The notes under the pieces: generated by a model
Database searches by the model: none
What the model saw: the letters and a program-made list of their open reading frames with translations, nothing else
What the model was told of the DNA's origin: nothing
Shown here: piece after piece, positions 29,144 through 43,394 of the stretch
How the letters are laid out: each line of letters opens with the position of its first letter
How positions within the stretch are numbered: the stretch's first letter is position 1
Origin: Actinomycetes bacterium
GTDB lineage: Bacteria > Actinomycetota > Actinomycetes > Streptosporangiales > Streptosporangiaceae
NCBI GenBank assembly: GCA_021792405.1
Contig: JAJYUU010000008.1
Location: forward strand, 1 to 52,433
Direction of reading: 5' to 3'
DNA length: 52,433 nucleotides
Made by a program: the position numbers and the translations under genes

Positions 29144-30529
29144 TTACGAATGCGCCTTGCCGCGGCCGTTGGCCAGCGCGTGGCCGGTGCCCAGCACATG
29201 GCCGGTGGCCAGCGCGTGAGCGGTGGCCATGCCGTGCAGCGCCGACTCGTAACCGGCACCGAAGCCGGTCGGCTTGCCGTTGTAGCTGGTGATCAGCCCG
29301 GGGCCAGTGGCGCAGTTGAAGTCGGTATTCCACGTCCAGGCCAGGTAGCTGGCGGACTTGGAGTTCAGCCAGTTCATCAGCGGGCGGACATAGGTATCGG
29401 CGCAGTCGTTCTCGCCGATCTCCCCGGCGATGAGCGGAACCTTGGCCGCCACCGGCGCGATCTGGCTGTTCCAGCACGACTGCGTGTTGCAGGCGTTGAA
29501 GTTGTAGGAGTGCCAGGACGCGGCGAGGTTGTGAGCGGGGTCGACCGGCTCGTGGGACAGCCAGCCGTTCAGGTAGTTCGACCACTCCAGGCCGCCGAGC
29601 ATCAGCACGTTGTTCGCCCCGGTGGAGCGGACCGCGTTCACCATGCTCTGCATGCCGGCCACCGGGTAAGGGATGCCAGCGCAGTTGCCGCCGTGCAGCC
29701 AGCAGTGCCAGCCCTCGGCGTAGTTCATCTGGTCGGCCTGCTCCGGGTATGGCTCGTTGAACAGGTCGAAGATGACGGCGTCGTTGCCCTTGAACGTCCT
29801 TGCCACGGAGGTCCAGAACGGGATTGCCTGCGCCGCGTCGGGCATCGGCTTCTGGCACGTCGCCTGCGCCGACGAGCAGGCCGACGCCGGGCCGGTGTAT
29901 GCGCCGTTAGTCCAGTGCAGGTCGAGGATGACGTTCATGCCGTCGGCGTTGAGCCGCTTCACGTAGCCCTCGACCGCAGCCCGGTAATTGGCGCCCGAGT
30001 AAGCGGGGTTGACGTAGGAGTCCCCGTTCCAGCAGGCCTCGTTGAGCGGTACCCGGACCGAGTTGATCCCGTAGGACTTCATGACATTGATCGACGCCGT
30101 GCTGGTGGGGCCGTCGAAGATGCCCTTGTTCTGCACGCACGCGTATTCGGTGCCGGAGCGGTCCACGCCGTGCAGGATCACCTGCTGGCCGGTAGCGCTC
30201 ACCAGCTTGTTACCGGACACGTGCAGCTGCGGAGCCGCACCGGGATTGGTCGCCGCGGTCAGCCCGAACGCCGGCGGACTCGCCGCTGAGCCGGCCGATG
30301 AGAACACCGCGACGCCTGTCGCGACACTGGCCGCCAGGACGGCGACGCCCGTCACGCGGCGGCGCATTGGCGATCCCAGCGTGGTGCCAGCGGCTTGGCC
30401 AGCGGCTTGTGTCACGCGGCGGCCGATGGGTGACCTCAGCAACCCGGCACTGGGGCTGCGTCCTGCCGCGTGAGCCGGCTCACCGGCTCGGCAGCGACGG
30501 ATGCGGGCCATTGTTGTCGGGAACTTCAC
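29144..30529 (-). CDS. secreted glycoside hydrolase family 5 (endoglucanase-like)
   Basis: A GH5 enzyme of up to 461 residues. Seen: ILHGVDRSGTEYAC, YGINSVRVPLNEACWNG, VILDLHWTNG, the acid/base Glu in DLFNEPYPEQ, and the nucleophile Glu in PLIAGEIGEND. Two starts compete: GTG at 30529, with GGAGG 9 bases upstream, or ATG at 30367, giving a clean signal peptide RRRVTGVAVLAASVATGVAV and an AGSAASP cleavage region. The C terminus has a short His/Ala/Gly-rich repeat (ATGHVLGTGHALANG). It is exported and likely acts on beta-glucan, matching the nearby polysaccharide genes. Confidence 0.88.
   Translation of the reverse strand: MKFPTTMARIRRCRAGEPAHAAGRSPSAGLLRSPIGRRVTQAAGQAAGTTLGSPMRRRVTGVAVLAASVATGVAVFSSAGSAASPPAFGLTAATNPGAAPQLHVSGNKLVSATGQQVILHGVDRSGTEYACVQNKGIFDGPTSTASINVMKSYGINSVRVPLNEACWNGDSYVNPAYSGANYRAAVEGYVKRLNADGMNVILDLHWTNGAYTGPASACSSAQATCQKPMPDAAQAIPFWTSVARTFKGNDAVIFDLFNEPYPEQADQMNYAEGWHCWLHGGNCAGIPYPVAGMQSMVNAVRSTGANNVLMLGGLEWSNYLNGWLSHEPVDPAHNLAASWHSYNFNACNTQSCWNSQIAPVAAKVPLIAGEIGENDCADTYVRPLMNWLNSKSASYLAWTWNTDFNCATGPGLITSYNGKPTGFGAGYESALHGMATAHALATGHVLGTGHALANGRGKAHS
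30351..30440. repeat. 60-bp-spaced duplication in the GH5 leader
   Basis: GTCACGCGGCGGC occurs at 30351 and again exactly 60 bp later at 30411, with the following 17 bases still partly alike. On the minus strand the copies encode SPMRRRVT and SPIGRRVT. The duplication creates the long N-terminal extension before the signal peptide. Confidence 0.6.
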
Positions 30530-30778: not shown

Positions 30779-31891
30779 ATGCCGTTAACTGTGCGGGTGG
30801 ATCTTCCGTCGCGCGATCGCCAGGTGCTGACGTCGTGGGCCTGCTCAACATCGGTACGGCCAGGGCTCGCGCAGCGTGCCCGGATCGTGCTGCTGGCCGC
30901 CGACGGCGCGCGGACCAGCGAGATCGTCGCCCGGACCGGGGCGTCCAAACCGACGGTGATTGCGTGGAAGAAACGGTATGCGGTCGAGGGCCTGCGCGGC
31001 CTGCAGGACCGGCGCAAGCCCGGCCGCCCGCGGCACACCGATGACGCGGCGATCGTGCTGGCGACGCTAGCCCCGCCGCCACCGCGGCCCGGAGTAACGC
31101 GCTGGTCATCCAGGCTGCTGGCCGACGAACTCGGCGTGTCCTACGTCAAGGTCGCGGATGCCTGGCGAGAGCTGGGACTGCAGCCGTGGCGGCGCGAGCC
31201 CTTCCGGTTCGCGACGCAGCCCCGGCTGGACATCAGGGCACGGGACGTGACCGGGCTCTACCTCAGCCCGCCCGATTACGCGGTCGTGCTCGACGGGACC
31301 AAAAGCCCGGCACGGCCGGGCGAGCCCGCGGATGAGGCTGACCAGTCCGCTGGTGCCGTGGCCCTGCTGGCCGCGCTGACCTCAGCTGCCGCACAGGCTG
31401 TCGCAGGCACCTACTACCCGCGCCGGCGGCACCGCAAGTTCCTGCACTTCCTGCAGCAGGCCGCGGCCGCACGGCCAGACGCCGTGCTGCACGTCGTCGC
31501 GGTCGACAGCTATGCCACCCGCCGGCACCCCGATGTGCGGGCCTGGCTGGCCAGACATCCCCGCGTCACGCCGCACTTCACCGCGACCCACAGGTCCTGG
31601 CTGACCATGACGGAGGTCTTCGTCTCCCTCAGCTCGCCGTCTGCCGGTGACAGCCCGCTAGCGCTCCCCCGCACCTTCGGCGTATCGGCGGCGATCGGCG
31701 CCGTCCTGACCAGCTGGGCTGACGGCTCACAGCCATTTGCCTGGACCAAGCCCGCCGGTGCGGACGAGCCTGGCGGCCTGCGGGATCAGTCTCGCAGGCC
31801 TAGCTGGACCGCCTTAGCGACTGCGTCGAGTTGCGAGCGCGCGCCGAGCTTGGCCAGGATCGAGCGAACGTGCGTCCGTACCGTCGCGTAG
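30779..31891 (+). CDS. IS630-family transposase (probably immobile)
   Basis: A 370-residue protein with IS630 layout. The N-terminal helix-turn-helix is RTSEIVARTGASKPTVIAWK with GLRGLQDRRKPGRPRH. The DDE core follows: VTGLYLSPPDYAVVLDGTKS (first Asp), HVVAVDSYATRRHPDVRAWL (second Asp) and HRSWLTMTEVF (Glu). The three acidic positions are kept, but the first motif has DG in place of the usual DE, and the expected HGTTSL is AGAVAL. The last 35 residues run antisense into the response-regulator gene. No terminal inverted repeats were found, so it looks like a remnant or domesticated copy. Confidence 0.75.
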   Translation: MPLTVRVDLPSRDRQVLTSWACSTSVRPGLAQRARIVLLAADGARTSEIVARTGASKPTVIAWKKRYAVEGLRGLQDRRKPGRPRHTDDAAIVLATLAPPPPRPGVTRWSSRLLADELGVSYVKVADAWRELGLQPWRREPFRFATQPRLDIRARDVTGLYLSPPDYAVVLDGTKSPARPGEPADEADQSAGAVALLAALTSAAAQAVAGTYYPRRRHRKFLHFLQQAAAARPDAVLHVVAVDSYATRRHPDVRAWLARHPRVTPHFTATHRSWLTMTEVFVSLSSPSAGDSPLALPRTFGVSAAIGAVLTSWADGSQPFAWTKPAGADEPGGLRDQSRRPSWTALATASSCERAPSLARIERTCVRTVA

Positions 31892-32460
31892 CTGATCTGC
31901 AGGCGCTCGGCGACCGCGCGGTTATCTGCACCGTGGATCATGAGGCCGAGTACTTCCTTCTCCCGCGGTGTCAGGCTTGCCAGCAACTGCGCCTGGCTGG
32001 CGTGCTCGCGATCGATCTCGCGGCGCCGTGCGAGCGCGCCGGCGATGGTGGCGGCCGGGATGAGAGTCTCGCCCGCCGCCGCCGCGCGGATCGACTCGAC
32101 GATCTCCTCACCAGTCGCGGACTTGAGCAGGTAGCTGCTGGCCCCGGCTTCGATCGCGGCCAGCAGCGGCTCATCGGTGTCGTCGGCGCTGAGGAAGACG
32201 ATTGCGGTGGACCCTGAGCGAGCATGGATCAGGTCGGCCGCGTCGGCGCCGGTGCCGTCGGGAAGATGGAAATCGATCACGGCCACGTCGGGCGATGACC
32301 CCGCCAGCGCCGGGGTCACCTCGGCGACGGACATGGCGCTAGCGACGACCTCCAAATCCGGGTAGTCCGCCAGCAGCGACGACAGGCCCTCGGCAACGAC
32401 CGGATGGTCCTCGACGAGCAGCACCCTGATCGGGTTGCTGCGCTCAGGCCGCCCGGCCAC
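31786..32460 (-). CDS. NarL/LuxR-type response regulator
   Basis: A 224-residue response regulator. The receiver domain has VLLVEDHP, the phospho-acceptor Asp63 in VAVIDFHLPDG, the threonine/serine in FLSADDTDE, and the Lys in LLKSATGEE. The C-terminal LuxR helix-turn-helix is LTPREKEVLGLMIHGADNRA and onwards. It overlaps the histidine kinase gene by 17 bp, so they form a cognate pair. It is the last gene of the long minus-strand run that begins with the glycosyltransferases. Confidence 0.93.
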   Translation of the reverse strand: MAGRPERSNPIRVLLVEDHPVVAEGLSSLLADYPDLEVVASAMSVAEVTPALAGSSPDVAVIDFHLPDGTGADAADLIHARSGSTAIVFLSADDTDEPLLAAIEAGASSYLLKSATGEEIVESIRAAAAGETLIPAATIAGALARRREIDREHASQAQLLASLTPREKEVLGLMIHGADNRAVAERLQISYATVRTHVRSILAKLGARSQLDAVAKAVQLGLRD

Positions 32461-33508
32461 GGCCAGCCTCAGGTGATCCGCCCAGCGGAATCCAGAACTC
32501 CACGGTGGTCCCGTCGCCCGGTGCGCTTTCGATCCGGCACCAGCCGCCTGCCACCTGTGCGCGTTCCCGCATCAGGGTCAGACCGAGGTGACCAGGGCGG
32601 TTCTCGACCTCCGCGGGGTTGTAGCCGACGCCATCGTCGACGATGCGGACCAGGCAGCCGCCGTCGACGTCAGTGAATTGAACCCGCACGGTGGTCGCGC
32701 TGGCATGGTCGCGGACATTCGCCAGTGCCTCCTGGATGATCCGGTACATCAGCACGGTGGCAGTACCCGGGGTCCGGGCAGTGGCAGTGTCATCGAGCCG
32801 GTAGGCGATCCCGTTCTCGGTGCGCATCTGCTCAAGCAGCGCGTGCAAGGCCGCGTCGAGACTTCCCCGCTGCAGGCTGGGCGGCCTGAGGTCGAAGATG
32901 AGCTGTCGCAAGCGGCTCAGCGACAGCGTGAGCGTCTCCTGGAGTTTGCCGAGAATTCGCAGCTCATCGGGATCGGAGAGGCGATGCCTGAGCTGCTGCA
33001 GCCGCAGGTTGGCCGCGGCGAGCAACTGAATGGTGTCGTCGTGAATGTCGGCCGCGATGCGGCCGCGCTCCTCCTCCTGCGCGCGGATGAGATGACCGAG
33101 CAGCGCCTGCTGGTCCCGGTCCGCCGACTCGAGTGTGTCCAGGCCGAGTTCGAGAACGAACTGAGCGCGCTGTGCCTCGGTGAGATCCTTGACGCACATA
33201 ACTGTCACCGTGCCCTCCCTACTCACAATAGGGACGACGTAGACCTCGGCCGGGAACTGGCTGAAGTCGCGGCGGCTGGCAACCAGATCCAGCCGCTGCC
33301 CGGTTCCGCCCTCGCCGGTGACATCCCCGCCGAGCGCTACCGGCTGACCGGGAAAGAGCCGCTCGACGGCCTGGCCGCGCAGTTCCCCCCGCCGGTAGCC
33401 GAACAACGACTCGGCCCCTGCGTTGGCCTCACGGACCTGACCAGCCCGGTTCACTATCACCATCGGGTCCGGAGACGATTCGAAGAGCTGACGGAACCGG
33501 CTCTTCAC
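32444..33508 (-). CDS. PAS-domain sensor histidine kinase (HisKA_3, NarX/DesK type)
   Basis: A 354-residue soluble kinase. Residues 1-110 form a PAS domain (LFESSPDPMVIVNRAGQVRE, SLFGYRRGELRGQ). The dimerisation helix carries the phospho-accepting His156 in AADIHDDTIQLL. The HATPase domain has MYRIIQEALANVRDHA (N box) and VRIVDDGVGYNP (G1). There is no membrane span, so the signal is sensed in the cytoplasm. The start overlaps the stop of the upstream unknown gene by 4 bp (ATGA), and the end overlaps the response regulator. Confidence 0.93.
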   Translation of the reverse strand: MKSRFRQLFESSPDPMVIVNRAGQVREANAGAESLFGYRRGELRGQAVERLFPGQPVALGGDVTGEGGTGQRLDLVASRRDFSQFPAEVYVVPIVSREGTVTVMCVKDLTEAQRAQFVLELGLDTLESADRDQQALLGHLIRAQEEERGRIAADIHDDTIQLLAAANLRLQQLRHRLSDPDELRILGKLQETLTLSLSRLRQLIFDLRPPSLQRGSLDAALHALLEQMRTENGIAYRLDDTATARTPGTATVLMYRIIQEALANVRDHASATTVRVQFTDVDGGCLVRIVDDGVGYNPAEVENRPGHLGLTLMRERAQVAGGWCRIESAPGDGTTVEFWIPLGGSPEAGRGRAA

Positions 33509-33972
33509 GGCGCGCGTGCCTCCCTGCGGTCCGGGGCTGAGGGCTGAGCAGGCACCACGTGCTCGACGCCAGCCTGCTCGGTCGCGCCCCTGGCCAGCGG
33601 CGGCATGACGGCGGCGAGCGGCGCCGTCAGCACGTCGTAGTTCCTGCCGATCTGCTCGCCCGCGGCGATCGCCGCGGCGGCGTCCCAGACGGCCGTCCAG
33701 AAGGCCCAGTCCGGCCGGTGCCTGCTGTAAGCGATGGTCATCGCCTCCGCCCGGGCGCTCGACGCCGCGGCTCTGATGCGGTACCGCTGGTCCTCCGAGG
33801 AGGTTCGGTACAGTTCCGCCCAGGCCCGGACCCGCTCGGTGTTGCTTGCCTGTTTCCAGGTGTCTGCCACCCGGCTGATCTGGTCAGCCGACAGGTTCTG
33901 CAGGTCGGTAAGGAAGCTCGCTATTCGCCCCGTGTGCGGACCGAAGATCGACTTCATGCTGATCATCCCCAT
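33505..33972 (-). CDS. hypothetical protein coupled to the two-component system
   Basis: A 155-residue protein I do not recognise. It is mostly helical and soluble by composition: TGRIASFLTDLQNLSADQIS, VADTWKQASNTERVRAWAEL, AFWTAVWDAAAAIAAGEQIG. There is no signal peptide or metal motif. Its stop overlaps the kinase ATG, so all three genes should be made together, and a role as a co-sensor or modulator is an inference. It starts 39 bp after the Ig-repeat membrane protein gene. Confidence 0.7.
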   Translation of the reverse strand: MGMISMKSIFGPHTGRIASFLTDLQNLSADQISRVADTWKQASNTERVRAWAELYRTSSEDQRYRIRAAASSARAEAMTIAYSRHRPDWAFWTAVWDAAAAIAAGEQIGRNYDVLTAPLAAVMPPLARGATEQAGVEHVVPAQPSAPDRREARAP

Positions 33973-34011: not shown

Positions 34012-35607
34012 TCAGGGATGCGAGGAGGCCGGCGCCGCCGACGAGTGGCTTGGTGCCGGGCTTGGCTTGCCGCCCAGGCTGGGTGGCAGCACGTACGGCG
34101 GCTGCGGCGGGACGCTCGGCGCAGCGCCCTTCGGCGCGGTCACCGAGATCTTCGCGGTAGCCGTGCCGCCACTCTGCTGGCCGACCAGGCGGAACGTGAG
34201 CTGCGGTCCGACTCCGCTGGGCACGACGTACGAGCCTGCGGCGGCTGCGGAGCCCTGCGCGTTGACCCGGAACGCGGTCACTAGCTGACCGGCGTTGCCC
34301 TGGCCGCCGATATAGACCAGGACCACTTCATTGGCAGCGAAGCCGTTGGCGTAGAAGCTCACGGTGGTGCCAGGCAGGGCGCCGTACGTGCTTGCCTGAG
34401 CGCTCGGATCGTAGGGCAGGACGGTGAACGCCGACGTGACGCCGGCCCTGCTCTGGTCGCCGATGGCGGTCAGGTGCTGGACGCCCTTGAGCCCGAACGG
34501 CACCACGAAGCTGACCGAGAAGTCGCCATAGCTGTTGGCCGTCGGGGTCAGCGCAGGCTGGGAGCGGTTCGAGTTGAGGTAAATGAGCACCTGCTCGCTG
34601 GGCGCGAACCCGCTGCCGGTGAAGGTCATCGCATGGCCTGCCCGCATGGCCCACGGATGTGCCGTCGTGCTCGGGTACAGGCCCAGCATCAGGTACGGCG
34701 CCGTCGCCGTCACCTTCGTCCGCTGCCCGACCAGCACCAGGGAGGTTGGCCCGACCGGGGCTATGCCGACCCGCAAGGTGGCCCGGATGTCGCCCGAGCT
34801 GTCGGCGGTCAGCGTTGCCGCCGGGGTGCCGGCGGTCCGGCCCCAGTAAGCGTTCACCAGCTCGCCAGGTCCGAACCCGCTGGCGGCAACGGTCACCATC
34901 GAACCCGGCTTACCTGCCGCCTTGCCGATGATGCTCGCGGTGCCGACCCCGCCGGATGACGAGAGCGACGCCGTGGCGGTCTTGCCGCCGCCCGCCTGCT
35001 GGGCCACGACCTCGGCGTTCGACGTGTTCACCGCTGTCGGCATGTGGAAGCCCACGGTGAGGTTGCCCCACTTATCGGTCTTACCGTGCGCGACCAACGT
35101 CGAGGTGCTCGACTTGCCGCCCGACCGCAGCCAGACCGAGACCGCCGAGGCCGGGGTGAAGCCACTGCCCTCGACGTTCACATATCCGCCCGGAGCCACC
35201 AGGCCCGGGTTGAGGATGATCACCGGCCCGGCGCCGGCCGCTACCGCGTGGCCGCCCAGTGTCACGGTTGGCATCGGCGTCGGCTTCACTGACGGCGCGA
35301 CCGGGCCCGATGTCGCGTTCTGGCCGGCGCTGGCGGGCTTCTTCGTGTTCTGCGTCAGCACGTTGAAAAGCTGCCAGACGATCACGATGGCGACCGCGGC
35401 GCCAACCATGGCCTTCCAGTTGACCTTCTTCCGCCCAGGCGGACCCGAGCCGCCAGCACTTCTCGGCCGCTGCGGACCCGAACCGCCTGCACTCTGCCGC
35501 ACTGGCGGACCCGAGCCGCCAGCGCTTCTCGGCCGTGGCGGACCTGCGCTACCAGGGCGACTTTCGCGTTCTGCGGCAGAGCTTCCGTTAAGCTTGGCGT
35601 CCATCAT
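34012..35607 (-). CDS. membrane-anchored protein with four Ig-like repeats
   Basis: A 531-residue protein. Residues 1-60 are cytoplasmic and Pro/Gly/Ser/Arg-rich, with the repeat SAGGSGPP three times. A single membrane span (MVGAAVAIVIVWQLFNVL) covers about 67-84. The outer part has four related modules marked by GSGFTPASAVSVWL, ASGFGPGELVNAYW, GSGFAPSEQVLIYL and ANGFAANEVVLVYI, an Ig-like/IPT-like fold found in surface proteins. The C terminus is Pro/Ser-rich. The gene lies 16 bp after the GT39 gene, so it probably helps assemble, anchor or export the polysaccharide. No known family name fits. Confidence 0.75.
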   Translation of the reverse strand: MMDAKLNGSSAAERESRPGSAGPPRPRSAGGSGPPVRQSAGGSGPQRPRSAGGSGPPGRKKVNWKAMVGAAVAIVIVWQLFNVLTQNTKKPASAGQNATSGPVAPSVKPTPMPTVTLGGHAVAAGAGPVIILNPGLVAPGGYVNVEGSGFTPASAVSVWLRSGGKSSTSTLVAHGKTDKWGNLTVGFHMPTAVNTSNAEVVAQQAGGGKTATASLSSSGGVGTASIIGKAAGKPGSMVTVAASGFGPGELVNAYWGRTAGTPAATLTADSSGDIRATLRVGIAPVGPTSLVLVGQRTKVTATAPYLMLGLYPSTTAHPWAMRAGHAMTFTGSGFAPSEQVLIYLNSNRSQPALTPTANSYGDFSVSFVVPFGLKGVQHLTAIGDQSRAGVTSAFTVLPYDPSAQASTYGALPGTTVSFYANGFAANEVVLVYIGGQGNAGQLVTAFRVNAQGSAAAAGSYVVPSGVGPQLTFRLVGQQSGGTATAKISVTAPKGAAPSVPPQPPYVLPPSLGGKPSPAPSHSSAAPASSHP

Positions 35608-35623
35608 TATGGCCTTCCTATGA

Positions 35624-37330
35624 CTATGGCTGAACCTTCCAGATTGAGACGCTCACTTGCCCGCTCGCCGACCCTTTAGATGCGTGCCAGACTTCTACGG
35701 AGTTGCTCAGGGCGGTGAGCATCCAATTCTCCTGGCCGTTCGTGTTATTGAGAATCATCGCGTGCTTCATGCCATTGGACAGCACGATGTAATTGACGTC
35801 CTGCCAGTTACCGTTGCCGTACATCTTCTTGACCTGCGGGTCTGACGCGGCATTCCAGTGCGACTCGTCGTAGCGGTAATAGGGGGCCACGTCATGCAGC
35901 GCAACCCAGATGTCGTCGTCAGAAATGATCTTCGCGTTCGGCGGGATGTGCTGCCGGATCCAGGCGATCTGCTCGGCCTGCAGGTAGGTCAGCGGCACGT
36001 GATAAGGGTCGGCCGCCTGCAACGGTCCCGGTTGGCCGTTGACCCCCTGGCCGTGCTTGATCAGGTAGCCGCCGGGCGGCACCAGCAGGAATAGTGCCGC
36101 GCACCCGCAGATCGCCGGCACGAAGAAACGTGACGCGGGGGCCGGAATGCTTCTCAGCGCACGGTCCGCCACGAACGCGATGCACAAGGCGTACATCGGG
36201 ATGAGCGGAATCACGTAGAAGTCGAGTATGACGCTTCCCCTGGCCAGGTAGAACGCAATCTCGAAGGCAAGGGTTCCGGCCACCAGCAGGGCGGGGTCCT
36301 TCTTCCGCACGTGCCAGCCGATCCAGATGCAGATGACCATCGCTGCGGTGCCGCCGATGAGCAGGAACGGGTCCTTCGGCAGCCAGGCAGTATAGAGGTA
36401 CGGGTCCTGGCTCCTGGGGTTGAACAACGTCCCCTGATCGCGGTGAATCTGATACCACATCTCATACAGCAGGGACACATGGCCCTTCTGCCCGGCGTTC
36501 AGGTTGAACGAGAGGTCGGTCGGCAGCAGCTCATTGTTAAGCGTGGCGTACAAGAAATAGGCAACGATTGGCGCAGCGGCGGAAAATAGCCAGAAGAATA
36601 TCGTGAAGTGCCGGCTCTCGTCCTGCTTGGCCCGGCGCGTCAGCAGGTAGAAAATGGTCGGCGCGAAGAATATCGCATTCTCCTTGGTGACCACGGATAT
36701 CCCGAATGCCAGGCCGGACCACAGGCCGGTGAACAGCAGCACGTCCTCGCGCAGCAGCAGGTAAATGCTCAGCAGCACCCAGAAGACCATGATGTTGTCG
36801 AGCAGTACCATCCGCTGGTAGTAGACGGCGAGCCAGGAGAAATTGAAGAAGAAGCACGCTATCGTCGGCGCTAGCAGGCCGCGGGACAGCTTGCGCGCGA
36901 TCTCGAACAGGAAGTACGTGCTGGCCGCGTGCAGTATCACCATCAGCACGCGGCCGGCGTTCACCGGGTTGCCGAACGTCTCGAATTGGCCGGGAAGCAG
37001 CATGACCCAGGCCGCGATCATCAGCCAGCCGGCCGGCGCATGGTCAAAGACATAGGTCTGCGGGCTCAGCCGGCCCTCGCGGATCACCGCCCAGGCCCGC
37101 TCCATGTAGATGCCCTCGTCGGTCTCCCACAGCGGATAGTCGAACAGGTGGTAGCTGTGCGTCACCAGGCCGCTGAGAATCGCGAAGGCCAGCGCGATGG
37201 TGCCGAGCTTGCCGCGGGCGGCGTACCAATCGTGTGCGGAGGAGGCGACGCTCGCACGCCGGGTTACCGGGGCGCTGCCACGAGGAGCAAGCCCGGTGAC
37301 CCTTGCGCCAGGTGCCGTCCTATGCGACAT
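35624..37330 (-). CDS. GT39/ArnT-like membrane glycosyltransferase
   Basis: A 568-residue multi-span protein of the dolichyl-phosphate-mannose/ArnT (GT-C) type. The first outer loop has the catalytic acidic motif YPLWETDEGIYMERAW. It is followed by many hydrophobic segments (VLMVILHAASTYFLFEIA, NIMVFWVLLSIYLLL, AIFFAPTIFYLL) and a soluble C-terminal domain of about 150 residues. Such enzymes move a sugar from a polyprenyl carrier to an acceptor outside the membrane. The start MSHRTAPG overlaps the GT2 stop by 11 bp, so the two are translationally coupled. Confidence 0.88.
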   Translation of the reverse strand: MSHRTAPGARVTGLAPRGSAPVTRRASVASSAHDWYAARGKLGTIALAFAILSGLVTHSYHLFDYPLWETDEGIYMERAWAVIREGRLSPQTYVFDHAPAGWLMIAAWVMLLPGQFETFGNPVNAGRVLMVILHAASTYFLFEIARKLSRGLLAPTIACFFFNFSWLAVYYQRMVLLDNIMVFWVLLSIYLLLREDVLLFTGLWSGLAFGISVVTKENAIFFAPTIFYLLTRRAKQDESRHFTIFFWLFSAAAPIVAYFLYATLNNELLPTDLSFNLNAGQKGHVSLLYEMWYQIHRDQGTLFNPRSQDPYLYTAWLPKDPFLLIGGTAAMVICIWIGWHVRKKDPALLVAGTLAFEIAFYLARGSVILDFYVIPLIPMYALCIAFVADRALRSIPAPASRFFVPAICGCAALFLLVPPGGYLIKHGQGVNGQPGPLQAADPYHVPLTYLQAEQIAWIRQHIPPNAKIISDDDIWVALHDVAPYYRYDESHWNAASDPQVKKMYGNGNWQDVNYIVLSNGMKHAMILNNTNGQENWMLTALSNSVEVWHASKGSASGQVSVSIWKVQP

Positions 37331-38645
37331 TTTCGCGCGCCTCGTCGAGCCCCAGTGCCCGGTCGCCAGACTCGCTGCGATGGGCTCCGACGTGCTGGGT
37401 CTTCTCCCAGTTGATGATGCCGCGGGACTGGCGCCTGACCGCCCGCAAGGCCGCGTAGGACAGCACAAGCTGATAGGGAATCCAGGCAACGGCCAGCAGC
37501 AGGACCGTCCGCAACGGCGGCTTCAGCCCGTGCGCCCCGGCAAACTCGTGCAGGCCGATAACCGAAACAAGCAAGTGCGCCAGCAGCAAGAGCACGGGCA
37601 GGAACGAGATCAGCGCCACGAGTACCGGCGTCTTGAATGTCAGCATCGTCGTGAGCGAGAAAATGAAGTAGATGCCGAGCAAAGCCTGGGCCTGCGGGAA
37701 AGCGAGGGTGTAGAAGGCGAGCCGGCGCTGCTTGGCGGTTGGCAGTTCGCGCCATACTCCTTTGCGCAGGGTCTGCAAGAATCCCTGGCTCCACCGGGTG
37801 CGCTGCCGGATGAACTGCGCCAGCGTCGGCGGGGTTTCCTCCTTGGTCACGTAGCGGTCGTCGTAGACGACGCGGATCCGCTCGCCGGCCGCCGACACGC
37901 GCAGGCCAATGTCGGCGTCCTCGGTCAGGTTCTGCTCGTCCCAGCCGCCAAGCCGGGCGACCAGGGCGCGCTCGAAGAAGACGGTGTTCCCGCCCAGCGG
38001 GATCGCTCCGAGCTTGGCGTGGTAGTGCAGGCGGCTCTTGAACCAGAAGAAGTACTCCAGGACATTCAGGGCCGAGTACCAGCTGGAGTCGAAGTTCATG
38101 AGCTGGACGCCAGCCTGGACGACCTTGACTTTCTCTTCTTCCATTACCGTGTTCACGACGTTAAAAATGTCCGGATGCATGTCGTCTTCGGCATCGAAGA
38201 TGGTGATGACGTCGTGACGCGAGTGCGGCAACGCGGCATTGAGGCCGTGCGGCTTGTTGACCGGACCGTCGCTGAACACAACTATCTGGACATTCGCCCG
38301 GCCTCGCCGCCGGAGGCGCTTGATCTCCTCCTCGGCCTTGCCGATGGTGTCCTGATCATCGGCGGAGCAGATCACCAGGACCTGGATGAGATGGGCCGGA
38401 TAGTTCACGCGCGCGAGGCGCGCGATGGTCGCGCGGATGACCTGTTCCTCGTGGCGGGCCGGGAGCATGACCGTGAACGACAAGCGCGGCGCCAGGAAAT
38501 GATCGGGCGCGCGGGCCTCATCGGGCGGCCGGTCCCAGGTATACAGCGTCAGGTACAGCGTGTGGGAGGCCTGGGCCGTGACAAGTAGCGAAACCAGCAG
38601 CAGGCCGGCGAAGATGACATCCGCCATCACGCTGCCCGGCCCCAT
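37320..38645 (-). CDS. processive family 2 glycosyltransferase (cellulose synthase-like)
   Basis: A 441-residue GT2 enzyme. One span near residues 8-25 precedes the catalytic domain. That domain carries PARHEE (62-67), DAEDD (151-155), TEDAD (241-245, the general base region) and QRTRW (281-285). The last is the QxxRW mark of processive beta-glycan synthases such as cellulose and hyaluronan synthases. Three or four hydrophobic segments follow (residues 300-390). No PilZ domain is present, so it lacks the c-di-GMP site of BcsA. It is the first gene of the run that goes on with GT39, the Ig-repeat protein and the two-component genes. Confidence 0.9.
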   Translation of the reverse strand: MGPGSVMADVIFAGLLLVSLLVTAQASHTLYLTLYTWDRPPDEARAPDHFLAPRLSFTVMLPARHEEQVIRATIARLARVNYPAHLIQVLVICSADDQDTIGKAEEEIKRLRRRGRANVQIVVFSDGPVNKPHGLNAALPHSRHDVITIFDAEDDMHPDIFNVVNTVMEEEKVKVVQAGVQLMNFDSSWYSALNVLEYFFWFKSRLHYHAKLGAIPLGGNTVFFERALVARLGGWDEQNLTEDADIGLRVSAAGERIRVVYDDRYVTKEETPPTLAQFIRQRTRWSQGFLQTLRKGVWRELPTAKQRRLAFYTLAFPQAQALLGIYFIFSLTTMLTFKTPVLVALISFLPVLLLLAHLLVSVIGLHEFAGAHGLKPPLRTVLLLAVAWIPYQLVLSYAALRAVRRQSRGIINWEKTQHVGAHRSESGDRALGLDEARENVA

Positions 38646-38962
38646 GCCGAGACGACGCTCACGACCTCATTGGTAAAACCGGCAATCCCGAATTGTGCGA
38701 CCCGGCCGACTTTGGCCCACGGCAGCCTGGTTATCGTTGCGTTCGTCAACTGGGTCTCCGAATCTTCTGGTTACGCAAGCTCTGCCCGCGCCTGCGTGCT
38801 TATGACTCGGCCTTGTTAGCTGACCGCCTTGATCTCCGGGGGCTTCTGAAGAACCTCATCCGCTACCCAAATTTCTACCGGGCGGGAAACGCGGTGCCAT
38901 CCCGGCGATCAACCATCTTTCGCGACGGGCGGCTGTCGCGTGCTGATGCTCCCGTGAGCGGG
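38646..38962. other. 317-bp intergenic region upstream of glycosyltransferase operon
   Basis: This gap lies between the LAL regulator stop and the GT2 start, both on the minus strand. It is less GC-rich than its surroundings near 38750-38880. It holds one copy of the three-copy element (see the entry starting at 38868) and should carry the promoter of the glycosyltransferase operon. An open plus-strand frame here has no family likeness. Confidence 0.6.
38868..38925 (-). promoter_or_regulatory. three-copy locus element, copy A (sense to glycosyltransferases)
   Basis: Read on the minus strand, this copy has GCGAAAGATGGTTGATCGCC, then GGGATGG, then about 17 less conserved bases and CCGGTAGAAAT. 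It aligns with copies at 41468-41522 and 41572-41628 over about 55 bp. It lies 220-280 bp before the GT2 start and points towards it. It may be a regulator-binding site or a transcribed leader. Confidence 0.7.
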
Positions 38963-41335
38963 CTATGCAGCGAGCCGGAGGCGGCTGCGGCCTAACGGCG
39001 TGGTACGGGTGATGTACGCGGCAGCATCGGCCCGGTTCCGGACGCCGACCTTGCGGTAGGCGTTTTGCAGATGCCGCTCCACGGTGTGGACGCTCACGAC
39101 GAGCTTGACCGCTATCTCGTTGTTCGTGTCGCCGGCGGCCAGCAGCTCGAGAACCTGGGCCTCGCGAGCCGTCAGGCCGTCTGGCCGGCGACCAGGCCGG
39201 CCGGCGCTGGCACCGCCCGGCCGTGGCCCGGGAATCAGCAGTTGCTGACTGGCCATGCGGCCGGTGTTCGTCATGACCTCGGCAAGAATGCCCGGCTCCG
39301 GGCAGGTGGCGATGATCTCCCTGGCTTCGCCGAGATACGCCTGCGCGTCTTCGGATTCCCCGGCCCTGGCCTTAAGCCTCGCCAGGCAGAGCAGCGCCTG
39401 GGCGGTTTCCAGCCGCGCCTGCCCGCGCCGGCCGATCTGCAGTGCTTCCCGCGCAGCGACTTCGGCCTCACCCCACTCGCTGCGCCGCTCGTGCAGGTCC
39501 GCCGCTGCCAGCGCCACCATCGGCGTGGCCCAGTACTGGCCGAGGCCGTGATGAGCGGCGAGCTTCGAAGCCTTGTCCAGGAAGCGCTCGCACGACTCCG
39601 CATCCCCTGACCTGATGGCGATCGCAGCCAGGCAGCCGAGCGCCCAGAGCGTGGCCAGGTTGCTGACGGCTGCCCGGGTCGGAGCCACCGCCTGCTCGAG
39701 CGTGGTGCGTGCCTCGGCGTCCTGCCCGCGCCAGGTCAGCACGGCACCCAGCGTTGCCAGCGTGATCGCTTGCCATCGAGCGGTCCCGGCCGCTTCGAGC
39801 TCGACCGCCCGCCGGCTGGCCCGCTCGCTCCGGGCGAGATCACCGGTCATGATCAGCTGCCCGGCTCGGACGATGACCGCAGCCGACTCGACCGACGTTG
39901 GACCCTGGCCGAACGCGCCCTGCGGCACAGCCGCGGCGGCGGCGTCAAGCCACGGGTCCACCTCATCAAGCCGGCCCAGGTGGCGGGCGAGAAACGCCCT
40001 GATGACGCACATCCGGGCGTCCTCCACCAGCATCTCCGGCGGCAACCTGTCCAGCCATGACTGCACTGTCGCGATCAGCCCCTGATGGACCACCGGGTTC
40101 CAGTTCGAGACGATCAGCTCTCTGGCGTCGGTCAGATCGGTTGCGGCGATGGCATGCCCGATCGCATCGGCGATCGACCCGTGCTCGCGATGCCACATCG
40201 ACGCGCGCCGGTGCAGTTGCGGGGCCAGGCCGGGCTCGGACATCTCCAGTTCGTGACGCAAGAGTTCGGCGAACAGGGTGTGATAGCGGTACCAGTGGCG
40301 AGCGGAGTCCAGCGGGACCAGGAAGAGCTGGGACCGCTCGATCTCCTCGAGCAGGCGCTGCGAGCCGGTCGAGCCGGTCACCGCGTCACACAGCGGGCCG
40401 GACAAGCGTTCCAGGACCGATGTGCGCAGCAGCAGCGAGCGAACATCGGGCGGCAGCCCGTCAAGGACTTCGGCGGCAAGATAGTCGACGATCTGGCGGT
40501 CATCGCCATGGAAGGCGTGCACCTGCTGGTGGGCGTCGTCGCGTCCGCGCAGCGATAGGCCGGCCAGGTAGAGCCCGGCGGCCCAGCCTTCAGTGCGGTG
40601 ATGCAGCGCCTGCACGGCGTCCGGCGGGAGCGTCACGCCCGCCGTGCCGTTGAGCAACTGCGTCGTCTCGGCCTCCGAGAAGCGGAGCTCATCAACCCGG
40701 ATCTCGGCCATCTGGCCCCTGGCCCGCAGCCGGGCCAGCGGAAGCTCAGGATCGGACCGGCTAGCCAGCACCAGGCGCAGAGCCGGCGGCAAATGCTCCA
40801 CCAGGAATGTCATCGATTCCTGGATGGCCTGGTTGGAGATCAGGTGATAGTCGTCGAGCACCAGCGTCACTGGTACCCGAATGCCTGCGAAGTCATTAAT
40901 TACCTGCGATAGCACGGTATCCGTGCTCTTCACCCCGGTCGCGGTGAGCGCCTCCAGGGCACCGGCGCCCACGCCAGGGCGCACGGTGCTGACTGCCGCG
41001 ACGACATGAGCCCAGAAGCTGACCGGGTCGTTGTCACCCCGGTCAACCGAGAGCCATGCGACGCGATCGGATTCACCAGCCGAGTACCAGTCGCACAGCA
41101 GCGACGTCTTGCCCCATCCGGCAGGCGCGACCAGCAGGACGAACCTGGCGGCAAGAGCCTCGTCGAGGCGATCGAGCAGGGCCTGGCGAATGACCGTCCC
41201 CGACTGTGCCATCGGGGGATGAAGCTTGCTCGCGAAGATCAGCGTCCTGCCGGGCACGCCAGGAACACTCCTCGCGCCACCCATCAGCCGGGCAGCCGAG
41301 GTGCGCTTACGGGTATAGAGACCCTGGTTGTTCAC
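38963..41335 (-). CDS. LAL-type (MalT-like) LuxR-family transcriptional regulator
   Basis: A 790-residue large ATP-binding LuxR regulator. The N-terminal ATPase has Walker A APAGWGKTSLL (residues 70-80) and Walker B VTLVLDDYHLI. The middle 450 residues are helical, TPR/MalT-like repeats. The C-terminal LuxR helix-turn-helix is LTAREAQVLELLAAGDTNNE and onwards to VHTVERHLQNAYRKVGV. The start is GTG; an ATG at 41284 is an alternative. It sits between the glycosyltransferase operon and the GH8 gene, and all three units have the same upstream element, which makes it the prime candidate for binding it. Confidence 0.92.
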   Translation of the reverse strand: MNNQGLYTRKRTSAARLMGGARSVPGVPGRTLIFASKLHPPMAQSGTVIRQALLDRLDEALAARFVLLVAPAGWGKTSLLCDWYSAGESDRVAWLSVDRGDNDPVSFWAHVVAAVSTVRPGVGAGALEALTATGVKSTDTVLSQVINDFAGIRVPVTLVLDDYHLISNQAIQESMTFLVEHLPPALRLVLASRSDPELPLARLRARGQMAEIRVDELRFSEAETTQLLNGTAGVTLPPDAVQALHHRTEGWAAGLYLAGLSLRGRDDAHQQVHAFHGDDRQIVDYLAAEVLDGLPPDVRSLLLRTSVLERLSGPLCDAVTGSTGSQRLLEEIERSQLFLVPLDSARHWYRYHTLFAELLRHELEMSEPGLAPQLHRRASMWHREHGSIADAIGHAIAATDLTDARELIVSNWNPVVHQGLIATVQSWLDRLPPEMLVEDARMCVIRAFLARHLGRLDEVDPWLDAAAAAVPQGAFGQGPTSVESAAVIVRAGQLIMTGDLARSERASRRAVELEAAGTARWQAITLATLGAVLTWRGQDAEARTTLEQAVAPTRAAVSNLATLWALGCLAAIAIRSGDAESCERFLDKASKLAAHHGLGQYWATPMVALAAADLHERRSEWGEAEVAAREALQIGRRGQARLETAQALLCLARLKARAGESEDAQAYLGEAREIIATCPEPGILAEVMTNTGRMASQQLLIPGPRPGGASAGRPGRRPDGLTAREAQVLELLAAGDTNNEIAVKLVVSVHTVERHLQNAYRKVGVRNRADAAAYITRTTPLGRSRLRLAA

Positions 41336-41467
41336 CCGGATATCGCCAAGATCTCGTTACGCCTGTGGTAGGCGAAGCCCATAGTGGCAGGATAACCCAG
41401 CTGTGATCGAGCCGGAACCGGCAGCGCGCTGTCATTCACGCCGAGTGAACGATGCAGGGCCCTACTT

Positions 41468-41522
41468 GCCGTTCTACCTGCGGGCCCGGCCGATGCCATC
41501 CCGGCAATCGACCATCTGGAGC
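41468..41522 (-). promoter_or_regulatory. three-copy locus element, copy B1 (sense to LAL regulator)
   Basis: On the minus strand: CAGATGGTCGATTGCCGGGA, then TGGCATCGG and CAGGTAGAAC. The distance from ATGG to GGTAGAA is 37 bases, as in copy A. It lies about 135-185 bp before the LAL regulator start. Similarity to copy A is 22 of 24 bases over the best-kept stretch. Confidence 0.7.
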
Positions 41523-41571
41523 CGCCGCGAGAGCATCCGGCTCGCGCGCCAGCGCCACCTGGACCCGGCAG

Positions 41572-41628
41572 CGCGAAACATGGTCGATCTCCGCGATGAA
41601 GCCCGCCCGGGTTCCCCGGTAGAAACTT
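41572..41628 (+). promoter_or_regulatory. three-copy locus element, copy B2 (sense to GH8 gene)
   Basis: On the plus strand: CGCGAAACATGGTCGATCTC, then CGCGATGAAG, then CCGGTAGAAACTT. The spacing from ATGG to GGTAGAA is 38 bases, one more than in the other two copies. It lies about 95-150 bp before the GTG start of the GH8 gene. Together B1 and B2 form a large inverted repeat with 49 bp between them. Confidence 0.7.
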
Positions 41629-41720
41629 CGGGACGCCGCAGTTCCGTCCAGGGCAACTGTTGCCCGCCGTCCGCTAGCGATCACCGCCGTGAGCGCCGCC
41701 GGCCGCCGAGGGGGCTTCGC

Positions 41721-42848
41721 GTGATCCGATCAGGTACCCGCCGTGGCCCCGGAGTGCGGCCGAAGACAACTTCCCGGCCACGGTATCTGAGGGTGGCTTT
41801 CCGGCTGATGGTGGTCATTGCCTCGGCAGGGCTCGCGGTCAGCGTCGCGGGCTGCGGCAGTGGCGGCCCGCAGCAGGCGGCGGCCAGGTTCCTGCAGACC
41901 TACGCCCGCCCTGATGGCCGTGTGGTGCGGATCGACCAGGGTCACGACACAGTGAGCGAGGGCCAGGCGTACGGCATGCTGCTGGCCGAGGCTGCCGGCG
42001 ATAGCACCCAGTTCCGGCAGATATGGATGTGGACGAAACGGCACCTGCAACTCCGCAGTCATCTCTTCGCCTTCCACGCAAACGCCGCGGGCCGGGTCAT
42101 CGGCCCCGGCGCTGCCAGTGATGCGGACCTGCTGATCGCCTGGGCCCTGCTCCGCTACCGTGGGCCAGAGGCGGCAGCCTGGCATCGCGACGGGCGCGAG
42201 GTAGCCGATGCGGTGCTGGCGCACGAGGTAGTCAGTGGTCCTGACGGGGTCCCGATCCTGGCAGCCGGGCCCTGGGCTACCGGGCCGCCAGCCACGATCG
42301 ACCCCAGCTACTGGTCGCTGGCCGCGTTTCAAGGGCTGGCGCACTTCACCGGTGATGAGATCTGGCTCCGCCTGGAGGCGGGCGCCGTTCGCCTCGCGCG
42401 CCAGATTACCGACAACGGCAAGCGGCTTCCGCCCGATTGGGCGCAGCTCAGCGTCGGCGACGCCCCGCAGCCGGAGCCGTCACCCGACGGCACGCAGACC
42501 CAGGCGCAGTACGGGCTGGATGCACAGCGCACGGTCGTCTGGTTTGCCGCGTCCTGCAATCCGCACGCCAGGGCGCTGGCGGCGCGCTGGTGGCGGCTGC
42601 TGCGAGCCGGACGCCGCGCGCACGCGCTCGCGCTGCGCCTCAACGGCACTGTACTGACTGCGACGCATGCCGCACTGCCGCTGGTAGCGGCAGCGGCAGC
42701 GGCAAAGGCGGCGGGCCATGGCACGCAATCCCGGCATTTGCTGGACGAAGCCGCGCTGCAGCAGCGCCACTACCCGACCTACTACGGCGGGGCCTGGTCG
42801 GCCCTCGGACAGGCGCTGCTGACGAGCGATGCGCTGGGTCCTTGCTGA
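41721..42848 (+). CDS. glycoside hydrolase family 8 lipoprotein (BcsZ-like endoglucanase)
   Basis: A 375-residue GH8 enzyme from the preferred GTG start (GAGGGGG 7 bases upstream). After a basic n-region come a hydrophobic core and the lipobox-like AVSVAGC with Cys45. Catalytic residues: the acid Glu80 in DTVSEGQAYGM and the base Asp in AASDADLLIAWALL. Then come IDPSYWSLAAFQGLAHFTGD and the C-terminal HYPTYYGGAWSALGQALL. GH8 endoglucanases accompany cellulose synthases and trim the nascent glucan. It is on the plus strand, divergent from the LAL regulator. Confidence 0.9.
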   Translation: MIRSGTRRGPGVRPKTTSRPRYLRVAFRLMVVIASAGLAVSVAGCGSGGPQQAAARFLQTYARPDGRVVRIDQGHDTVSEGQAYGMLLAEAAGDSTQFRQIWMWTKRHLQLRSHLFAFHANAAGRVIGPGAASDADLLIAWALLRYRGPEAAAWHRDGREVADAVLAHEVVSGPDGVPILAAGPWATGPPATIDPSYWSLAAFQGLAHFTGDEIWLRLEAGAVRLARQITDNGKRLPPDWAQLSVGDAPQPEPSPDGTQTQAQYGLDAQRTVVWFAASCNPHARALAARWWRLLRAGRRAHALALRLNGTVLTATHAALPLVAAAAAAKAAGHGTQSRHLLDEAALQQRHYPTYYGGAWSALGQALLTSDALGPC

Positions 42849-42998
42849 TCCGGCGCCGGAAGATGATTGATCGCCGGGATGCGCCGTCGCCCGGCGTCAA
42901 GGTAGGACTGTGCCTATAGCCTGAGCGGCCTGCCGCGAACCCGGCAACCGGCCTATTACCGACAGCCGATATCCCGACACGCGAGCACGGAGAGAGCC

Positions 42999-43394
42999 AT
43001 GAGCTTGAAGGCTAGCGAGCAGATTGCGCTGGATGCGATCGAGCACAATCTGCGGATCGCCGACCCAGAACTGACGATCGCGTTCGAGTCCTTCACGACA
43101 GTGACAGCGAACACGGCATTGCCGGAGTCCGAGCGACTCGGCGGACCCCGGACGCCGACCGTCACACCGGCAGATCACGGTCCAGAACCGGCCAAGATGA
43201 CGTTCGCGATGTGGCTCACCGTCTTCTTCCTGGTCGGCATGGTGCTAGCCGGAACGGCCCTGGCGCTGTTCTCCGGAGCGAGCCGTAGTGGCTGCCCGGG
43301 CCCGGCGCGACCAGCCTTCGCGCAGGCCAGAACTGCGGGCGGGCTGCCGCCCGGACGGACGGGGCCGTCCTGCTCAGGCTTCACGCAGAAGTAA
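42999..43394 (+). CDS. DUF3040-like small membrane protein
   Basis: A 131-residue protein. Its first 40 residues (LKASEQIALDAIEHNLRIAD, PELTIAFESF) are like the DUF3040 opening, where E-x2-AL-x2-IE-x2-L leads to DP. One membrane span follows (MWLTVFFLVGMVLAGTALAL, about residues 70-89), then a Gly/Pro-rich tail. The span is single where most DUF3040 proteins have two. Start ATG with GGAGAG 4 bases upstream. Function of the family is unknown. Confidence 0.75.
   Translation: MSLKASEQIALDAIEHNLRIADPELTIAFESFTTVTANTALPESERLGGPRTPTVTPADHGPEPAKMTFAMWLTVFFLVGMVLAGTALALFSGASRSGCPGPARPAFAQARTAGGLPPGRTGPSCSGFTQK

Follow-up and report, generated by a model that had tools for sequence, protein, structure and literature searches.

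Analysis of a 52,433-nt stretch of DNA from the genome of an uncultivated member of the actinobacterial family Streptosporangiaceae (contig JAJYUU010000008.1, hereafter the window) revealed a directional, two-block element ahead of each of four transcription units in a single locus that is probably devoted to making, trimming and regulating a sugar polymer of the cell surface. The element consists of a 20-nt box, SATGRTYGATYKCCGSGATG, a free linker of 18-19 nt and the heptamer GGTAGRA, and four copies of it are found in the window. We propose that it is an operator-promoter used only in this locus and read by a regulator that the locus itself encodes, most likely a MalT-type LAL protein; judged from the sequence, we put the probability of this reading at about 0.55. 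The window represents contig 255 of a 5.39 Mb genome in 314 contigs. The four copies are:

38873-38917, minus strand: copy A, box GATGGTTGATCGCCGGGATG, 18-nt linker, GGTAGAA; faces the operon headed by a GT2 glycosyltransferase gene
41472-41516, minus strand: copy B1, box GATGGTCGATTGCCGGGATG, 18-nt linker, GGTAGAA; faces the LAL gene
41579-41624, plus strand: copy B2, box CATGGTCGATCTCCGCGATG, 19-nt linker, GGTAGAA; faces a GH8 glycan hydrolase gene
42862-42907, plus strand: copy C, box GATGATTGATCGCCGGGATG, 19-nt linker, GGTAGGA; faces a small DUF3040 open reading frame (ORF)

All four copies are directed into a transcription unit, each into a different one. The LAL and GH8 genes are divergent, and B1 and B2 lie in their common intergenic stretch. 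Measured from the last base of GGTAGRA, the likely start codon follows after 242 nt (A, GT2), 136 nt (B1, LAL), 96 nt (B2, GH8) and 91 nt (C, DUF3040), where start codons are our own choice, guided in part by ORFs of a sister locus described below. A first-pass annotation of this DNA had described copies A, B1 and B2, and their places, orientations and spacing were reproduced here (37 bases from ATGG to GGTAG in A and B1, 38 in B2). Its count of three fell short by one: copy C, located directly after GH8 and ahead of the DUF3040 gene, emerged from a search for repeats and a scan with a profile.

The resemblance between the copies had been judged unlikely by chance, and leave-one-out scoring, in which a weight matrix was built from three copies and used to score the fourth, excludes chance resemblance. 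The held-out copies scored 42.1 (A), 38.5 (B1), 32.9 (B2) and 35.6 bits (C), compared with a top score of 22.7 across 100 order-2 simulated windows and of 30.6 in 489 kb of real DNA (24.4 with the matrix built without B2). The real-DNA control is all the stricter because some of that sequence was retrieved on account of its similarity to the model.

A sequence model built from all four copies was then used for wider searches. In the whole genome it returned the four copies at 49.8-54 bits, all in the locus, with the next best match at 18.1 bits (150 of 10974 first-look candidates scored). A dispersed repeat, the outcome named by the first-pass annotation as fatal to its proposal, is thus ruled out. 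Further searches, run with stricter filters, covered 60 relatives, 341 genomes of the family and 394 of the class; these sets overlap and each includes the window's own genome. Strong copies were found only in the window genome and in one genome of the same genus, G004 (four copies, 44-51 bits), and the other seven same-genus genomes, 72-93% complete, gave no strong match. In the family set, 339 of the 341 genomes were without a strong match (15 candidates scored per genome). At E ≤ 0.001, eight of the 341 matched: the window genome, its sister and six genomes with one match each at 22-25 bits, which, judged from the alignments alone, resemble GC-rich coding sequence. Only the window's own genome matched at E ≤ 1e-5 in the class set, a sample that may lack G004.

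The nearest named match of the window is "Actinobacteria bacterium isolate clean1706" (L005), whose model scores equal those of G004 and which is probably that same genome. Over 12.5 kb the two loci share 94.7% DNA identity, and all four copies recur, so that the conservation ahead of orthologous genes anticipated earlier is seen in the one orthologous locus found. Across the four pairs of copies, 1 of 108 positions in the box and GGTAGRA had changed, against 13 of 74 linker columns (Fisher p 4e-5) and 15 of 156 flanking positions (p 0.003; count corrected for an indel). The sole block change is a C/T difference in the B2 box, at a position already variable between copies. In L005, the linker of B1 is changed and one base longer with box and GGTAGAA intact, and copy C carries five linker changes with box and GGTAGGA intact. 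Given the overall divergence of 5.3%, one or fewer changes in 108 positions has a probability of 0.02 and 13 or more in 74 a probability of 0.0001; the linkers are unusually fast and the blocks slow. These p-values are indicative, because the block limits were taken from the copies themselves and copy A has no linker change.

The same comparison bears on whether the copies could be fragments of a repeat, a mobile element or decayed coding sequence. The reverse strand of some copies does read as protein-like strings, and the single weak matches in other genomes have a coding look. However, the genome holds no other strong copies, the A-/B1-/B2+/C+ layout is unlike terminal repeats, and the frame from block to block varies (37 or 38 nt), shifting in B1 between the sisters while the blocks stay intact. 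A coding remnant was rejected on the grounds that the frame differs between copies, and we regard this whole class of explanations as the least probable of those considered.

Two constrained blocks joined by a free linker that tolerates one additional base fit a regulator site combined with a core promoter element, and not a folded RNA. The box and GGTAGRA are 18-19 nt apart in all eight copies (window and sister), and the extra base in the sister B1, with both blocks intact, is how a promoter spacer behaves. A structured, riboswitch-like RNA leader ahead of each unit would be allowed by the sense orientation and by the position 91-242 nt before the start codons. This alternative was rejected for want of Rfam matches and of covariation, and we give it very little credence: the window has no Rfam match at gathering threshold, and the two low-score matches at E ≤ 5 in 38600-41900, a range that copy C lies outside, are unrelated. 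Further, the linkers vary freely, and the consensus fold of the eight copies comprises five pairs, four of them broken or gapped in two copies. The covariation check suggested by the first-pass annotation yielded no compensatory change at any of these five pairs, leaving RNA structure unsupported.

In the operator-promoter we propose, a DNA-binding regulator made by the locus would bind directionally to the 20-nt box, placed at roughly -52 to -33, and GGTAGRA, 18-19 nt downstream of the box at about -14 to -8, would act as a -10-like element. The regulator would replace the normal -35 contact, as MalT does. With the MalT-type LAL as the binder, probably acting as an activator that depends on ATP and a ligand, four units would be turned on in concert: the putative operon of GT2, GT39, Ig-like protein, histidine kinase and response regulator genes through copy A, the LAL gene through B1, GH8 through B2 and the DUF3040 gene through C. 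The first-pass annotation had suggested one directional control signal for the synthase operon, the regulator and GH8; its locus specificity and its retention in the sister bear this out, with four units in place of three.

Fixed spacing between two blocks with a tolerance of 1 nt is equally typical of sigma-factor promoters, and the reader of the element could be encoded outside the locus, either as an alternative sigma factor, with the box near -35 and GGTAG at -10, or as a global regulator. We consider such an external reader distinctly unlikely, given that strong matches number only four in 5.4 Mb and fall in one locus, that nearly the whole family set is free of them, and that a scan of 16 proteins from the locus and its flanks showed no sigma factor. 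The GerE helix-turn-helix (HTH) domains of the response regulator and the LAL are matched by Sigma70_r4 models, above cut-off in the former and below it in the latter, which we read as HTH overlap.

The genes of the four units, on which the choice of a local binder depends, are:

31786-32460, minus strand: NarL-type response regulator with GerE HTH (Pfam); last gene of the glycosyltransferase (GT) operon
32444-33508, minus strand: PAS/HisKA_3 histidine kinase (Pfam); GT operon
33505-33972, minus strand: hypothetical protein, no Pfam or NCBIfam match; GT operon
34012-35607, minus strand: Ig-like repeat protein, NCBIfam GxPGS_dom at E 1.5e-8, below cut-off; GT operon
35624-37330, minus strand: GT39/PMT-like membrane glycosyltransferase, PF13231 at 29.6 bits (cut-off 26.1); ORF to 37489
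37320-38630, minus strand: membrane GT2 glycosyltransferase, PF13641 at 136 bits; first gene behind copy A; ORF to 38645, start probably at 38630 or 38627
38963-41335, minus strand: LAL regulator with MalT-type STAND ATPase, TPR region and C-terminal GerE HTH (Pfam)
41721-42848, plus strand: BcsZ-like GH8 glycan hydrolase, PF01270 at 99.1 bits, NCBIfam BcsZ at 106.4, below the cut-off of 299
42999-43394, plus strand: small DUF3040 protein, PF11239 at 25.5 bits (cut-off 24.7) over the first 34 residues; behind copy C

The LAL gene is located between copies A and B1. The N-terminal STAND ATPase of its product matches MalT (8bob_C) over residues 33-445 (E 1.3e-63), the TPR region is MalT-like (PF17874, 54.4 bits against a cut-off of 45) and residues 720-774 form a LuxR/GerE helix-turn-helix (PF00196, 60.5 bits). 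The protein falls below the cut-off of the MalT equivalog model NF003420 (440.1 bits against 537, in two stretches, the best covering 35-675). Relatives at E ≤ 1e-60 occur in 21 of 60 genomes, the one in the sister being 93% identical and all others no more than 46%. In 18 loci with LAL relatives the best box-plus-GGTAG score is 2.7-15.6, compared with 45.2 in the two true loci. A second LAL of the same genome, on contig 187 (L117 7586-9904, minus strand), is 42% identical to the first and has no element; the best score around it is 18.9.

All eight copies carry GGATG[GAC] or CGATGA at the same box position. The MalT-box core GGA(T/G)GA is matched there at 5 of 6 positions in seven copies and at 6 of 6 in one, which qualifies the earlier statement that no named motif is like the element. 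This likeness of the proximal part of the box is weak and serves as a lead only, since a match at 5 of 6 positions occurs in roughly 32% of random 24-mers. If GGTAGRA is the -10 element, the MalT-like core would lie at about -37 to -32, and a weaker GRTYGA is found 12 bp upstream of it in the same direction.

The first-pass annotation saw in the LAL the natural binder. It remains a plausible one, yet not the sole candidate, because the GT operon ends with a histidine kinase and a NarL-type response regulator, the latter seen in just the window genome and its sister among 41. The same operator-promoter could be read by this response regulator, with the LAL gene as one of its targets. In favor of this arrangement, the kinase/response-regulator pair closes a six-gene run behind copy A in which neighboring genes overlap or lie no more than 39 nt apart, the response regulator also carries a GerE HTH, and its distribution matches that of the element (window genome and sister, 2 of 41 genomes at E ≤ 1e-40). 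On the other side, short repeats are the common sites of NarL-type regulators, and no clear symmetrical heptamer pair was seen in the element; the LAL, a MalT-type protein, is encoded between A and B1, and known MalT sites overlap -35. We consider the response regulator a possible but unlikely binder. That both GerE-type regulators read the same box appears less likely than either this or an external reader. If they did, an ATP/ligand switch and a kinase signal would jointly or competitively set synthesis, trimming and the expression of both regulators in a closed feedback loop. Whichever local regulator reads the box, its own gene stands behind a copy, and the circuit is therefore autoregulatory if the binder is local.

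Several observations weigh against an operator-promoter read by the LAL. As a candidate, the response regulator is just as private to the locus. About one in three random 24-mers would show the MalT-core likeness, and the copies do not count as independent trials. The comparative evidence comes from one sister locus, no third orthologous locus having been found, and copy A, whose box and linker are both identical between the sisters, does not contribute to the contrast between blocks and linkers. The housekeeping actinobacterial -10 element is TANNNT, usually with T at -7; TAGRA[AC] provides T-A at the would-be -12/-11, and the final T at -7 is absent from all eight copies. A simple sigma-70 consensus scan, which is uninformative for this organism, predicted no promoters here. 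Finally, the TCATCC half of the closest described motif, that of Actinoplanes, is absent, the corresponding positions reading GTTGAT, GTCGAT or ATTGAT.

That motif belongs to Actinoplanes sp. SE50/110, where, according to excerpts of the report, the inverted repeat TCATCC-N5-GGATGA overlaps the -35 region of 17 mapped transcription starts within one region and was attributed to a MalT-like regulator on the strength of a motif search and of deletion and overexpression transcriptomes (PMC7567727). The system described in these excerpts shares with ours a MalT-type regulator in a compact region, a motif before many units of that region and a GGATGA-like core, the -35 overlap being predicted in our case. 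In contrast, the upstream half differs, our box is longer, and the four sites stand before glycan genes and are known from sequence analysis. The E. coli/Klebsiella MalT box is quoted in the same excerpts as GGGGA(T/G)GAGG (PMC7567727). Like MalT boxes as presented there, the sites described here are directional and may contain a direct repeat near -35 (GRTYGA and GGATGN, or CGATGA in B2, 12 bp apart), a repeat that was read post hoc; unlike in the MalT box, the flanking G residues are not kept.

Two further actinobacterial systems offer comparison in the portions of their reports available to us. TpdR, an LAL of Rhodococcus jostii TMP1, was proposed from promoter mutations to bind two 15-bp direct repeats, the proximal of which (-51 to -37) overlaps -35 (PMC6099782). 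It is likewise an actinobacterial LAL, but its repeat as given there, TnnAAnnGCGGAnTC, does not resemble the box (PMC6099782). PimR of Streptomyces, a SARP-LAL without a LuxR-type HTH, binds CGGCAAG heptamers upstream of -35 through its SARP domain (PMC5930380). It too is a pathway-specific, LAL-related regulator, and in the same source its operator is described as cluster-private direct repeats (PMC5930380). Our LAL differs in having a GerE HTH, and the Pfam scan found no SARP domain in it.

The kind of regulation is known; the sequence and the regulon are new within the material searched. Literature searches with the box sequences and for LAL proteins together with glycan terms found nothing, subscription journals being outside their coverage. 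If the operator-promoter reading is correct, a small self-contained regulon comprising a GT2/GT39 synthase, a GH8 hydrolase, a small membrane protein and a MalT-type regulator will have been defined from sequence alone. It would further supply a concrete candidate binding site for a member of the LAL family, described in the excerpt of one report as poorly studied (PMC3282765).

A common switch for synthase and GH8 makes sense in light of GT2 loci elsewhere. Across 297 genomes of the order, nine (the window genome and its sister among them) encode a relative of the GT2 protein at E ≤ 1e-60, as do four of 396 genomes of the phylum, the window genome again included, at E ≤ 1e-120. Ten distant GT2 loci from the phylum beyond the sister and one Chloroflexi record (L006) were compared, of which L075, L115 and L116 are shortened by contig ends. 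GH8 adjoins GT2 in two of the ten, in both as a single-ORF fusion to a GT39/PMT-like protein directly after GT2 (L114 6519-9608, minus strand, and L115 7533-10463, plus strand; genomes G506 and G714). These fusions support a functional link between GH8 and this GT2 synthase that would otherwise not be obvious.

An LAL together with a separate GH8 was found in none of the 11 distant loci, some of which end at contig ends, and with the LAL as query nothing came up beyond short C-terminal hits in L075 and L081. The element model reached at most 13.4 bits in the ten and nothing at E ≤ 5 in L006. This absence is not a refutation, because the LAL unit is absent there too. The Chloroflexi record has the GT2-GT39-Ig arrangement, with a GT2 identity of 61%; LAL, GH8 and element were not found within the 11.3 kb examined.

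Some features of the encoded proteins may be added. The nearest NCBIfam models of the GT2 protein include EpsU, PgaC and CelA, all far below cut-off, and the GT39 start is probably at 37330, as suggested by the sister ORF (L005 10313-12019). By eye, the N-terminus of GH8 looks lipoprotein-like and the DUF3040 protein likely has a transmembrane segment. The Ig-like repeat protein, without a match in the Pfam scan, may be secreted or anchored. Its gene contains DNA repeats spaced 267 nt and, near the N-terminus, a region of 33-nt repeats encoding SAGGSGPP-like units that differs from the sister genome. Near the locus lies a GH5 cellulase-family gene (29144-30529, minus strand), ahead of which the genome search found no strong copy of the element. 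A helix-turn-helix/DDE_3 transposase-like ORF (30779-31891, plus strand) adjoins the operon and is present in the sister locus too.

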